Shown here piece by piece: positions 6,158 through 25,207 of a stretch of DNA of 64,000 nucleotides (its first letter is position 1; the number at the start of each line of letters is the position of its first letter). Origin of the DNA: Pseudomonas urmiensis (GTDB taxonomy: Bacteria; Pseudomonadota; Gammaproteobacteria; Pseudomonadales; Pseudomonadaceae); assembly GCF_014268815.2 (NCBI RefSeq), contig NZ_JABWRE020000001.1, positions 2,051,001-2,115,000 of the forward strand, in the 5' to 3' direction. A program made the translations under genes and the position numbers. The notes beneath the pieces are model-generated. The model was not told the origin of the DNA. It saw only the letters and a list, made by a program, of their open reading frames with translations, and searched no databases.

Positions 6158-6589
6158 ATGCAAGGCAAGGCCCGCAAGATCGTCCAGGCCATCTGCTATG
6201 AAGTCATCGCCGTGGCCTGCGTAGCGCCGGCGCTGTCGTTGATGTTCGACGCAGGCATGGCCCATTCGACGGTGCTGTCGGTGCTGATGTCGGGCATCGC
6301 CATGAGTTGGAACATGGGCTACAACTGGGCCTTCGAGCGCTGGGAGGCGCGTCAGCAGCAGCGTACCCGTACCCTGTTGCGCCGGGTGCTGCATGCGTTG
6401 GGCTTCGAGGGTGGGCTGGTGTTGATCCTGCTGCCGCTGGTGGCGTTCTGGCTCGACATCAGCCTGTGGCAGGCATTGCTGACCAACCTGGCCTTGTTCG
6501 TGTTCTTCTTCGTCTATGCCTTCGTGTTCCAATGGGGCTTTGACAAGGTGTTCGATGTGCCGCTCTCGGCCCAGCACGTCAAATGTTGA
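6158..6589 (+). CDS. PACE-family multidrug/biocide efflux transporter
   Basis: A 143-residue inner-membrane protein with four predicted helices arranged as two copies of the bacterial transmembrane pair (BTP) domain. The paired motifs are visible: RKIVQAICYEVIAV with WNMGYNWAFERWE in the first half, and RRVLHALGFEGGLV with FVYAFVFQWGFDKVFD in the second. These match AceI-type PACE exporters, which expel chlorhexidine, acriflavine and short-chain diamines using the proton gradient. A strong ribosome site (AGGAGG) lies 6 bases upstream of ATG 6158. It is divergent from wecB and followed closely by the ilvA leader region. The family is confident; the substrate is unknown. Confidence 0.9.
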   Translation: MQGKARKIVQAICYEVIAVACVAPALSLMFDAGMAHSTVLSVLMSGIAMSWNMGYNWAFERWEARQQQRTRTLLRRVLHALGFEGGLVLILLPLVAFWLDISLWQALLTNLALFVFFFVYAFVFQWGFDKVFDVPLSAQHVKC

Positions 6590-6615
6590 CTTGCCGTACC
6601 CAGGCAGGCTAACGT
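6586..6615 (+). promoter_or_regulatory. Candidate promoter of the ilvA leader transcript
   Basis: TTGACT at 6586-6591 overlaps the stop codon of the PACE gene and a weaker TAACGT lies at 6610-6615, 18 bases downstream. The next ATG, of the Ile-rich leader peptide, is only 8 bases past the -10-like box and has no visible Shine-Dalgarno sequence, so the leader message may be nearly leaderless. The -35 is good and the -10 is poor, so the call rests partly on its position in front of the attenuator. Confidence 0.45.
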
Positions 6616-6623
6616 CAGCGCCC

Positions 6624-6692
6624 ATGAATACCTTCCCGCAACGTCGCGCCCTGAGCATTATTATTACCGCCATTATCGGATTGGCGGGCTAG
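6624..6692 (+). CDS. Isoleucine-rich leader peptide of ilvA
   Basis: A 22-codon open frame from ATG 6624 to TAG 6690-6692. Five of its codons are isoleucine, in the run SIIITAIIG (codons 6657-6677), with threonine and leucine nearby, and it ends just before an intrinsic terminator placed ahead of a threonine dehydratase gene. This is the arrangement of classic amino-acid attenuators such as those of thr and ilv operons. The sequence GGCGGG at 6683-6688, inside the last codons, is identical to the 3' arm of the terminator at 6721-6726 and could pair with its 5' arm CCCGCC at 6710-6715 as an antiterminator. A ribosome held at the Ile codons would leave that segment free; one reaching the stop codon would cover it. 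The reading frame and structures are seen; the mechanism is inferred. Confidence 0.8.
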   Translation: MNTFPQRRALSIIITAIIGLAG

Positions 6693-6709
6693 CGCGTACG
6701 TGCACCGAA

Positions 6710-6732
6710 CCCGCCCTGGAGGCGGGTTTTTT
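6710..6732 (+). terminator. Intrinsic terminator (attenuator) before ilvA
   Basis: CCCGCC at 6710-6715 pairs with GGCGGG at 6721-6726 over a 5-base loop, followed directly by six T residues. It lies between the leader peptide stop (6692) and the ilvA ribosome site (AGGAG, 6766-6770). The competing pairing with 6683-6688 is described under the leader peptide. Confidence 0.85.
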
Positions 6733-6776
6733 CTCTCTGACTCCTGGGCAAATCAAAAAAAAGCCAGGAGTCATCG

Positions 6777-8339
6777 ATGACCAGCCTCAGTGTCAGCCCG
6801 CGTACCGCCACCACGCCGCAACAATTGCTTTCGGAGCAGGTGCGGCGGATTCTTGCCGCCCCCGTGTACGACCTGGCCATCGAGACCCCACTGCAAGTCG
6901 CCCCCGCCTTGTCGGCAAGCTTGGCTAACCAGGTGCTGCTCAAGCGTGAAGACCTGCAGCCAACCTTCTCGTTCAAGATCCGCGGTGCCTACACCCGGCT
7001 ATCACGGCTGACCACTGCCCAGCGCGAGCGCGGGGTGATCACCGCCTCGGCGGGCAACCACGCCCAGGGGGTCGCCCTGGCTGCGGCGCACCTGGGGATG
7101 CGTGCGACCATCGTCATGCCCACCACCACGCCGACGCTGAAGATCGAAGGCGTGCGTTCTCGCGGTGGCAATGTGGTGCTGCATGGCGAAAGCTTTCCCC
7201 ATGCGCTGGCCCACGCCCTGCGCCTGGCCGACGAGCACGGCGCGACGTTCGTGCCGCCGTTCGACGATCCAGACGTGATCGCAGGCCAAGGCACCGTGGC
7301 CATGGAGATTCTTCGCCAGCAGCCTGGGGCGCTGGATGCGATCTTCGTGCCGGTGGGTGGCGGCGGCCTGATCGCCGGGATTGCCGCCTACGTCAAATAC
7401 CTGCGGCCCGAGGTCAAGGTGATCGGCGTCGAGCCGCAGGACTCCAACTGCCTGCAAGCGGCCATGGCTGCCGGTGAGCGGGTGATCCTGGCGCAGGTCG
7501 GCACGTTCGCCGATGGCGTTGCGGTGGCGCAGATCGGCGCCCATTGCTTCGAATTGTGCCGACATTTCGTCGATGAAGTGATCACCGTCAGCAGCGATGA
7601 GCTCTGCGCGGCGATCAAGGACATCTACGACGACACCCGCTCTATCACCGAGCCCTCTGGCGCGTTGGCGGTGGCCGGGATCAAGAAGTACGTGGCCCGT
7701 GACGGCGTGCAGGGGCAGACCCTGGTGGCGATTGACTCGGGCGCCAACGTCAATTTTGACCGCCTGCGTCATGTCGCCGAGCGGGCCGAGCTGGGTGAGC
7801 AGCGCGAGGCGATCATCGCCGTGACCATCCCGGAGCAGCCAGGCAGTTTCCGCGCATTCTGCCAGGCCCTGGGCAAGCGCCAGATCACCGAGTTCAACTA
7901 CCGCTATTACCCAGGAAAAGAAGCGCGGCTGTTCGTCGGGGTGCAAACGCATCCGCTGAACGACCCGCGTGAACAGCTGCTGGCCAGCCTGCGTGAGCAG
8001 GGCTACAGCGTGCTCGACCTGACCGACAACGAATTGGCCAAGCTGCATGTGCGTCATACCGTCGGTGGGCATGCCGCGCCTGGGGCGGATGAGCGGGTGT
8101 TGCGCTTTGAGTTCCCGGAGCGGCCGGGGGCGTTGTTGGGCTTTTTGGAGCGCTTGGGCAAGCGTTGGAACATCAGCCTGTTCCATTACCGCAACCATGG
8201 TGCGGCCGAGGCCCGGGTGTTTGCCGCGCTGGAAGTGCCTGGGGATGAACTGGCGGGCCTGCCGGTGGCGTTGGATGAAATGGGCTATCGCTATTGGGAT
8301 GAGACGGATAACCCGGCGTATCAGCTGTTTTTGGGCTAG
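6777..8339 (+). CDS. ilvA: Threonine ammonia-lyase, biosynthetic (IlvA)
   Basis: A 520-residue PLP enzyme converting L-threonine to 2-oxobutanoate and ammonia, the first step of isoleucine synthesis. The catalytic domain shows the PLP lysine in SFKIRGAY (Lys67), SAGNHAQG, the phosphate-binding loop VGGGGLIAG and the DSGANV stretch. The C-terminal third (about 340-520) holds two ACT-like regulatory domains (IPEQPGSFRAFCQALG and FPERPGALLGFLERLG), the mark of the isoleucine-inhibited biosynthetic form rather than the catabolic one. ATG 6777 has AGGAG at 6766-6770. Expression is probably set by the upstream Ile-rich attenuator, so both transcription and enzyme activity would answer to isoleucine. 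Pseudomonads commonly have more than one threonine dehydratase gene; which copy this is cannot be told from the window. Confidence 0.95.
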   Translation: MTSLSVSPRTATTPQQLLSEQVRRILAAPVYDLAIETPLQVAPALSASLANQVLLKREDLQPTFSFKIRGAYTRLSRLTTAQRERGVITASAGNHAQGVALAAAHLGMRATIVMPTTTPTLKIEGVRSRGGNVVLHGESFPHALAHALRLADEHGATFVPPFDDPDVIAGQGTVAMEILRQQPGALDAIFVPVGGGGLIAGIAAYVKYLRPEVKVIGVEPQDSNCLQAAMAAGERVILAQVGTFADGVAVAQIGAHCFELCRHFVDEVITVSSDELCAAIKDIYDDTRSITEPSGALAVAGIKKYVARDGVQGQTLVAIDSGANVNFDRLRHVAERAELGEQREAIIAVTIPEQPGSFRAFCQALGKRQITEFNYRYYPGKEARLFVGVQTHPLNDPREQLLASLREQGYSVLDLTDNELAKLHVRHTVGGHAAPGADERVLRFEFPERPGALLGFLERLGKRWNISLFHYRNHGAAEARVFAALEVPGDELAGLPVALDEMGYRYWDETDNPAYQLFLG

Positions 8340-24128: not shown

Positions 24129-25207
24129 GCGACGACCTCCTGTGCCGCGCCCCGGTAAACCTGGGCCCAGCGTTGTGCCAGGGTGGGAAGGTGGTAGCGT
24201 TCACGTTGGGTCTGGCGGGCGCGGGCGACCAGCTCGCCAGCCTGCGCCGGGTCTTCGAGCAGGGCCAGCAGCTGCTGGCCCAGCTCATCGACGGCCAGTG
24301 GCCGGGCCAACAGGCCATTGCGCCCATGTTCGATGACGTCAGGGATGCCGCCGACGCCGAAGGCCACCACTGGGACGCCATCCTGCATGGCTTCGAGCAG
24401 GATCATCGGCGTGCCTTCGGTGCGCGAGCTGATCACTAGCGCATCCAGGCGGGCCATCCAGCTGCGCATATCGCGCTGAAAGCCTGGCAGGGTGATGCGC
24501 TCGGTGAGCCCGGCGGCATCGATGCGCGCTTGCAGTTCAGCGCGTTCAGGGCCTTCGCCGAGCATTACCCCACGCACCTGCCGGTGGCGTTGGCACAGCG
24601 GGATCAAGGCGTCGAGGAACAGGTCCGGGCCTTTTTCGCGGCTCAAGCGTCCCACATAGCCGGCCAGCCACGTCCCGCTCGCCGGTATCCGTTCAGGCAG
24701 GGCAGCGGCTTGCGGCAGGCCATTGGGAATCACCTGCAGGCGGCTCGCCGGTACCCCCGCATCGCGCAAAATACGCGCGATGCTTTCGGCCACGCAGACC
24801 ACCCGCTCAACGTTGGGCATGCGGCACAGTTGCAGGCTCAGCCAGGTATACAGGCGTTGTTTGCGGCTGCTGGGGGTAAAGCCGTGCTGGGTGATCACCA
24901 GCGGCAAGCGCCACACGCTGGCACCCAGCCAACCGAACACCAGGCCTTTGAAGTTGTGCGTATTGATCAACGGCCGTTGCTCGCGCAACAGCCGCAGCAG
25001 CGCTGGCAGGCTGTCGCACGACTGGCACTGAACCCCTGCCTCGCGGAACCGGGTAACCAGCTCCGCCGGGGCATCGAGGAACACCACGCGATGGTCGCCC
25101 GAGGTCGCCTGGCAGTGGTCCAGCAGCATGCGCTCAGCACCATAGAAGCCGCCGCTGCTGAGCAGGTGCACGATCGGCCGGCCGGCGGCGGGCACGGCGG
25201 CGTTCAA
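24125..25207 (-). CDS. Glycosyltransferase family 4
   Basis: A 360-residue GT4/GT-B enzyme: LLSSGGFYGAERMLL at the N-terminal lobe, IPNGLPQAAALPE at the hinge, WLAGYVGRLSREKGPD, and the conserved E-x7-E region SSRTEGTPMILLEAMQDGVPVVAF, seen as SSRTEGTPMILLEAM. The first codon is uncertain: TTG 25207 overlaps the preceding stop (TTGA), while GTG 25195 is an alternative. The gene overlaps its neighbours on both sides, which fits translational coupling within the operon. It would add one sugar to the lipid-linked repeat unit. Confidence 0.87.
   Translation of the reverse strand: MNAAVPAAGRPIVHLLSSGGFYGAERMLLDHCQATSGDHRVVFLDAPAELVTRFREAGVQCQSCDSLPALLRLLREQRPLINTHNFKGLVFGWLGASVWRLPLVITQHGFTPSSRKQRLYTWLSLQLCRMPNVERVVCVAESIARILRDAGVPASRLQVIPNGLPQAAALPERIPASGTWLAGYVGRLSREKGPDLFLDALIPLCQRHRQVRGVMLGEGPERAELQARIDAAGLTERITLPGFQRDMRSWMARLDALVISSRTEGTPMILLEAMQDGVPVVAFGVGGIPDVIEHGRNGLLARPLAVDELGQQLLALLEDPAQAGELVARARQTQRERYHLPTLAQRWAQVYRGAAQEVVA

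Follow-up and report, generated by a model that had tools for sequence, protein, structure and literature searches.

A conserved putative isoleucine attenuator, probably leaderless, precedes ilvA2 in Pseudomonas urmiensis and is best read as the origin of the P9 RNA

We conclude that ilvA2 of Pseudomonas urmiensis is very likely coupled to the supply of isoleucyl-tRNA by a ribosome-mediated attenuator, the leader of which would be read as a leaderless message and the terminated RNA of which would be the catalogued P9. Translation of a tiny Ile-rich leader thus probably decides whether transcription continues into ilvA. The sequence anatomy of the attenuator, its conservation, its pairing and the covariation of its helices are directly observed in the window and its relatives.

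Results

Anatomy of the leader region

The window, i.e. the whole 64,000-nt stretch of P. urmiensis DNA analysed here, contains the features collected in Table 1. The leader peptide reads MNTFPQRRALSIIITAIIGLAG up to the TAG at 6690-6692. Its five Ile codons are ATT at 6657, 6660, 6663 and 6672 and ATC at 6675, and the GGCGGG at 6683-6688 lies within the leader codons TTG GCG GGC. The two strands of the window together hold 306 ORFs of 15-30 aa that begin with ATG, and just two of them have five Ile codons, namely the leader at 6624 and a 30-aa ORF at 24387. The product of 6777-8339 carries PALP and Thr_dehydrat_C domains according to a domain search.

A preliminary description of this DNA had pictured a 22-residue leader with five Ile codons followed by a terminator, and every one of these elements is present in the sequence. 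Folding speaks in its favor as well: none of 200 dinucleotide shuffles is as stable as 6624-6776 (z -4.38). It had further called the arrangement a classic attenuator in front of ilvA; the anatomy stands, but segment 1, which forms the 1:2 hairpin, and the second hairpin over the ilvA Shine-Dalgarno had been missed.

Table 1. Features of the ilvA2 leader region in window coordinates
Feature	Position	Strand	Remarks
-35 box TTGACT	6586..6591	+	match of at least 5/6 to TTGACA (spacer 15-19 allowed) in 152/169 unique leaders
-10 box TAACGT	6610..6615	+	8 nt upstream of the leader ATG
Leader peptide ORF, 22 codons + TAG (6690-6692)	6624..6692	+	ATG at 6624; probably leaderless, putative start
Control Ile codons ATT ATT ATT	6657..6665	+	immediately 5' of segment 1
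Rfam RF00624 (P9) match	6657..6730	+	87.3 bits, cut-off 43
Segment 1 CCGCCA	6667..6672	+	partner 6682-6687
Segment 2 TGGCGGG	6682..6688	+	common to 1:2 and the antiterminator
Segment 3 CCCGCC	6710..6715	+	partner segment 2 (antiterminator) or segment 4 (terminator)
Segment 4 GGCGGG	6721..6726	+	partner segment 3; 3:4 formed in 95.2% of cells
Intrinsic terminator	6707..6732	+	9-bp stem 6707-6715/6721-6729, then T-run
10-bp hairpin enclosing the ilvA Shine-Dalgarno	6738..6773	+	6738-6747 with 6764-6773, predicted fold; moderate support
ilvA Shine-Dalgarno AGGAG	6766..6770	+	read from sequence
Threonine ammonia-lyase gene, ilvA2 type, 520 aa	6777..8339	+	NF009130, 990.9 bits

RF00624, 'Pseudomonas sRNA P9', is the only Rfam match above the cut-off in the window; a riboswitch or T-box was set aside on this ground. 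Since 6657-6730 matches this model, the best reading of P9 is that of a terminated attenuator leader. PMC2375449 counts P9 as one of the sRNAs that had been detected by Livny et al. In the literature searched, we found no attenuator role, leaderless layout or additional targets for P9, and an earlier claim may exist elsewhere; the term 'ilva' is absent from the main texts of PMC3460626 and PMC3247240 in a term search.

The leaders compared here derive from a start set of 187 entries, i.e. the window and 186 loci. Eleven of them (L211-L221), read as chance matches, were dropped, as were L201, L207, L209 and L210 (the last three because TAnnnT is missing) and three duplicate regions, leaving 169 unique leaders. 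L201 was lost to a regex that was too narrow; inspection by eye shows TACATT 7 nt upstream of its ATG. Because of these dropping rules, promoter and start counts over the 169 are conditional, the unconditional count being 172/175. Rates over loci also lean upward, since the loci are mostly the best-ranked among the matches listed.

Promoter and leader start

TAnnnT stands 5-9 nt before an in-frame start in 172 of the 175 loci scored, the exceptions being L207, L209 and L210, and the gaps actually used are 6, 7 or 8 nt. The same procedure at random anchors in the loci gave 153/7000 (2.2%), and 84 of 4998 other ATGs have TAnnnT at the gap. Among the 169 unique leaders, the distance from the -10 box to the ATG is 6 nt in 48, 7 nt in 86 and 8 nt in 35. 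The leader start is ATG in 169/169 although GTG and TTG were allowed, ATG having been preferred in the four cases where several starts fitted. The 17 of the 169 leaders without a -35 box of at least 5/6 carry the extended -10 TGn, and the 12 leaders before the P-loop gene described below have TTGAC 34-37 nt upstream of a leader ATG. A promoter scan with its own cut-off gave no sigma-70 site at the leader; the -35/-10 assignment rests on conservation. By itself, the promoter-ATG pattern is unenriched in the own genome, with 4 matches versus 4 in the reversed control.

Position -1 of the leader ATG is C in 96% of the unique leaders. An AGGAGGT word of at least four letters precedes the leader start in 3/169, compared with 10.6% of random windows. 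The promoter geometry, the ATG start and the absence of a Shine-Dalgarno constitute the layout of a leaderless mRNA. Judged from this layout, the leader mRNA is probably leaderless and would start at, or within ~2 nt of, the A of the ATG. The lack of a Shine-Dalgarno and the very short 5' end, which had been suspected for this one leader, are thereby supported as a conserved layout across the leaders of relatives.

Pairing and covariation of the four segments

The pairing was scored in an alignment of 42 representatives. Helix 1:2 (6667-6672 with 6682-6687) is paired in 97.2% of cells, the antiterminator 2:3 (6683-6688 with 6710-6715) in 252/252 and the terminator 3:4 (6707-6715 with 6721-6729) in 95.2%, and sliding the partners by 1-3 columns lowers the paired cells to 23-66% across the three helices. 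In helix 1:2, four cells are changed on both sides, a number reached by 0/500 shuffles, and these fall in two pairs, a pair number reached by 43/500. The covariation score of 3:4 is reached by 0/500 shuffles. Helix 2:3 is nearly invariant within the family, as a single pair varies and on one side only, and 500/500 shuffles equal it.

A wider alignment (MAFFT) of 54 rows joins to the 42 representatives 12 leaders that belong to the order but to other families, L270 and L271 being absent through a regex miss. Base 3 of segment 2, base 4 of segment 3 and base 3 of segment 4 together read C/G/C in 37 rows, T/G/C in 11, T/A/T in 5 and T/C/T in 1. The T/A/T rows are a three-way compensatory change in five relatives outside the family. 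Because the bases of the three segments change in a coordinated manner, segment 2 follows both of its partners.

In 158/169 leaders, the stop codon lies 7 nt past the first G of segment 2; in 1 leader it lies 11 nt past this G and in 10 it comes 4 nt ahead of it. Since the 10 leaders whose stop precedes segment 2 keep this segment, the constraint is on the RNA, not on the peptide, and conservation of the LAG tail at the peptide level was rejected for the same reason. The terminator loop CTNGA varies, and its pairing with the second hairpin was weighed by eye only.

Isoleucine codons and folding around a stalled ribosome

The number of Ile codons per leader is three to six in 162/169 and two in 7/169, the second control codon of these seven being ATG; L329, outside the family, has two as well. 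ATTAT is invariant at the control-codon site in the 42 representatives, and segment 2 follows the last control Ile codon at a distance of 20 nt in 149/169 leaders and of 17, 19 or 23 nt in the rest. The 169 leaders use ATT 522, ATC 73 and ATA 17 times, and the downstream genes use ATC 2288, ATT 317 and ATA 35 times. In the leaders L002-L008, the control run opens with ATA in place of ATT, ATA being a codon that the downstream genes seldom use.

Assuming that the leading edge of the ribosome lies ~15 nt beyond the first base of the P site, none but the first three Ile codons should be able to antiterminate, and a stall at the fourth or fifth would cover part of segment 2. When the RNA behind the edge of a ribosome stalled at 6657, 6660 or 6663 is removed and the transcript extends to 6720, 2:3 forms in the predicted fold (-16.5, -16.5 and -15.5 kcal/mol, respectively), and the free RNA, from which nothing is removed, folds as 1:2 plus 3:4. 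Once the RNA includes the whole T-run, 3:4 (-21.3 to -22.0 kcal/mol) is more stable than 2:3, even if the 5' part is taken away. Antitermination must be kinetic, because the complete segment 4 makes 3:4 favored in each case.

These results bear on the switching logic of the preliminary description. Its antiterminator, GGCGGG paired with the 5' arm of the terminator, is the helix formed in all 252 cells of the 42-row alignment. The Ile codons, the conservation of which it had made decisive, are retained (at least three in 162/169 unique leaders, two in 7). Its idea that a stall at the first Ile codons frees segment 2 agrees with the footprint geometry for 6657, 6660 and 6663 and with the folding, and the stop 7 nt past the first G of segment 2 in 158/169 is consistent with a ribosome at the stop codon masking the antiterminator.

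A second hairpin over the ilvA Shine-Dalgarno

A predicted hairpin, 6738-6747/6764-6773 (-16.7 kcal/mol), hides the AGGAG at 6766-6770. A downstream start with a Shine-Dalgarno follows closely after the terminator in 165/169 leaders, a Shine-Dalgarno at that start having itself been a search condition. GGAG is present in 163 of the 165, and the best-pairing word opposite is mostly CTCC, with C at its first, third and fourth base in 159, 161 and 157 of the 163, respectively; it sits 14 nt past the terminator in 97 rows. As for the flanking pairs, the next outer one is formed in 80/163 (T-A 53, A-T 26), the second outer one in 148/163 and the inner ones in 88, 126 and 134 of 163. The pairing probability of the Shine-Dalgarno averages 0.88, compared with 0.80 in shuffles, and is higher in 129/165 leaders; 31/36 representatives have a Shine-Dalgarno more paired than the shuffles. 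The support for the second hairpin is moderate because the choice of anchors favored maximal pairing and the shuffles, too, are well paired. At L254, a stretch that by eye resembles an inserted dispersed repeat follows the terminator, where relatives carry the Shine-Dalgarno.

Distribution and downstream genes

At E 0.001, RF00624 is found in 299/398 genomes of the genus sample, 290 above the Rfam cut-off, and in 139/298 of the family sample, 129 above it, with 0/14 control genomes in both searches. The remaining 99/398 genus genomes have no match at this E value, and the search filters lose weak matches. Among the matches listed, the switch regex, which is strict and may miss variants, matched 9/80 loci of the nearest IlvA relatives. 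The switch was not seen by eye in the upstream 340 nt of 22 of the 71 regex-negative loci, and most of these 22 adjoin a divergent gene that we take to be rpiA. Of the two IlvA loci of strain BN102, L036 carries the switch and L093 lacks it. From this survey of IlvA loci, BN102 included, the switch appears to belong to one of two ilvA types. The order-wide R1 search hit 21/244 genomes, 16 of which were placed, 6 in the family and 10 at the P-loop gene. The class-wide R1 search hit 13/321, comprising the own genome, two SnoaL-like cases, one P-loop case and nine others (L273-L281) that were read by eye as chance terminators.

The first downstream ORF of the 169 leaders encodes IlvA in 108, a SnoaL-like protein in 31 (including L141, shortened, and L190, with a misassigned start) and a second short ORF in 26, with no clear start in 4; the sorting used script labels, and 35 'other' and two odd short ORFs were assigned by hand from their sequences. 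The preliminary description had seen a switch for a single-gene threonine dehydratase. In the window, ilvA2 does lie downstream; elsewhere the switch is not restricted to ilvA.

The SnoaL-like proteins have SnoaL_3 and DUF4440 domains. In the family sample, the gene is found in 25/148 genomes (E 1e-10) and stands directly behind an RF00624 match (E 0.001) in 25/25, two of these matches, in G136 and G438, being below the Rfam cut-off. G136 has two switches, one before ilvA and the other before the SnoaL-like gene (G136:C27). In the genus sample, the gene occurs in 12/249 genomes, 9 with an upstream model match, one of them weak (26.8 bits), and 3 without. Homologues are also present in Rhizobium and Methylomonas, and the own genome gave no SnoaL-like match. 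A SnoaL/NTF2-like gene was seen behind the switch, with or without ilvA2 following it, at L191-L210, L138-L146, L165 and others. L320, upstream of the SnoaL-like gene, has what look like remnants of the terminator arm and of the second hairpin without a full switch, and is possibly a decayed switch copy.

The P-loop NTPase gene occurs in 14/244 genomes of the order, 12 with an upstream model match and 2 without. Its product weakly resembles models of DNA topology modulation proteins, below their cut-offs. Outside the family, at L323-L329, L331-L334 and L336, the gene lies behind the switch and a leader that holds two to seven Ile codons.

The second short ORF (25-40 aa, mostly starting MI, with 2-6 Ile) follows the terminator in 26/169 loci, for example L001-L015, L042 (P. 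congelans) and L088 (P. viridiflava). Its stop overlaps the ilvA start as ATGA in 16 of the 26, which suggests that the short ORF and ilvA may be translationally coupled.

Discussion

In the proposed mechanism, transcription would begin on the A of the leader ATG or right beside it, and the 22-codon leader would be read as a leaderless message. When Ile-tRNA is scarce, the ribosome would stall on the ATT codons at 6657-6665 and mask segment 1; 2:3 would then form and RNA polymerase would continue into ilvA. When Ile is ample, a ribosome at the TAG (6690) would mask segment 2 and the 3:4 terminator would form. Should there be no translation, 1:2 would form, and the terminator too. The terminated transcript would be the catalogued P9 RNA, and in read-through transcripts the second hairpin may reduce access to the ilvA Shine-Dalgarno. 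The 5' end, the stalling, the response to Ile and the effect of the second hairpin are the parts of this model that we infer.

Other origins of the same sequence pattern have to be weighed. P9 could be the gene of a trans-acting sRNA with its own terminator, with the position before ilvA and the short ORF being incidental. Rfam files it as an sRNA, it is among the detections of Livny et al. (according to PMC2375449), and the attenuator RNA rnTrpL of S. meliloti also acts in trans (PMC7298713). We nevertheless regard this as very unlikely, because 169/169 unique leaders have an ORF that places one or more Ile codons 17-23 nt ahead of segment 2, the 2:3 pairing, useless to a plain sRNA, is formed in 252/252 cells, and a gene start with a Shine-Dalgarno lies closely behind the terminator in 165/169. 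It is likewise improbable that the control is mainly translational, with the Shine-Dalgarno hairpin as the switch and the terminator as a minor leak-stop. The four-segment switch is more conserved than the hairpin. In favor of such control, the 10-bp stem reaches -16.7 kcal/mol in the window, CTCC is mostly opposite GGAG and the neighboring pair is T-A in 53 rows and A-T in 26, but the anchors were picked to maximise pairing, this pair is formed in just 80 of 163 rows, and the Shine-Dalgarno pairing is 0.88 where shuffles give 0.80.

The seven leaders with two Ile codons and the frequency of Ala and Thr in leaders might suggest a promoter-proximal terminator whose leader ORF lacks Ile specificity, e.g. 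a general sensor of translation or growth rate. This seems extremely unlikely, given that Ile makes up 18.5% of leader residues after Met1, that at least one Ile codon occupies the stalling position in 169/169 leaders, and that leaders outside the family carry runs of up to five Ile codons.

The putative Ile-responsive attenuator has parallels in known systems. The ilvGMEDA operon of E. coli, which contains a threonine deaminase gene, is preceded by alternative hairpins and a leader peptide that includes Ile codons, and the whole operon is under multivalent control by Ile, Val and Leu. In contrast, the switch described here heads ilvA directly, with Ile as the sole control codons. The RF00624 entry covers the same sequence, its model spanning the Ile codons to the T-run, but it is filed as an sRNA and the model omits the promoter, the leader start and the second hairpin.

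Ribosome-mediated and leaderless attenuators are already a known kind, and the ilvA2 switch would be a further case. According to PMC11857589, the leader start codon of C. glutamicum ilvBNC is one nt from the transcription start and a short terminated transcript is made. This system also has a branched-chain amino acid leader peptide, although it belongs to an actinobacterium, controls ilvBNC, is valine-dependent and uses a different 15-aa leader with Ile, Val and Leu codons. In S. meliloti, the small RNA rnTrpL has the ATG that opens its leader ORF right at the 5' end, as PMC7298713 describes; it is, like the ilvA2 switch, a proteobacterial attenuator with an RNA starting at the leader ATG (putatively so here), but it responds to tryptophan, controls trpE(G), and its RNA and peptide act in trans. 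The C. glutamicum and S. meliloti cases show that leaderless attenuators are precedented outside Gammaproteobacteria.

The attenuator reading offers a function for an Rfam family that is filed as sRNA, and provides a simple Ile attenuator in which leaderless initiation becomes testable in a Gammaproteobacterium. Through the common switch, two uncharacterised protein families are also linked to the supply of isoleucine. We see about an even chance that P9 is a portable leaderless Ile-sensing switch that heads an Ile-starvation regulon of ilvA2, SnoaL/NTF2-like and P-loop NTPase genes across Pseudomonadales. If this is true, the SnoaL-like protein and the P-loop NTPase, both without known function, would be implicated in Ile metabolism, where, as a guess, they may handle reactive intermediates of threonine deamination.
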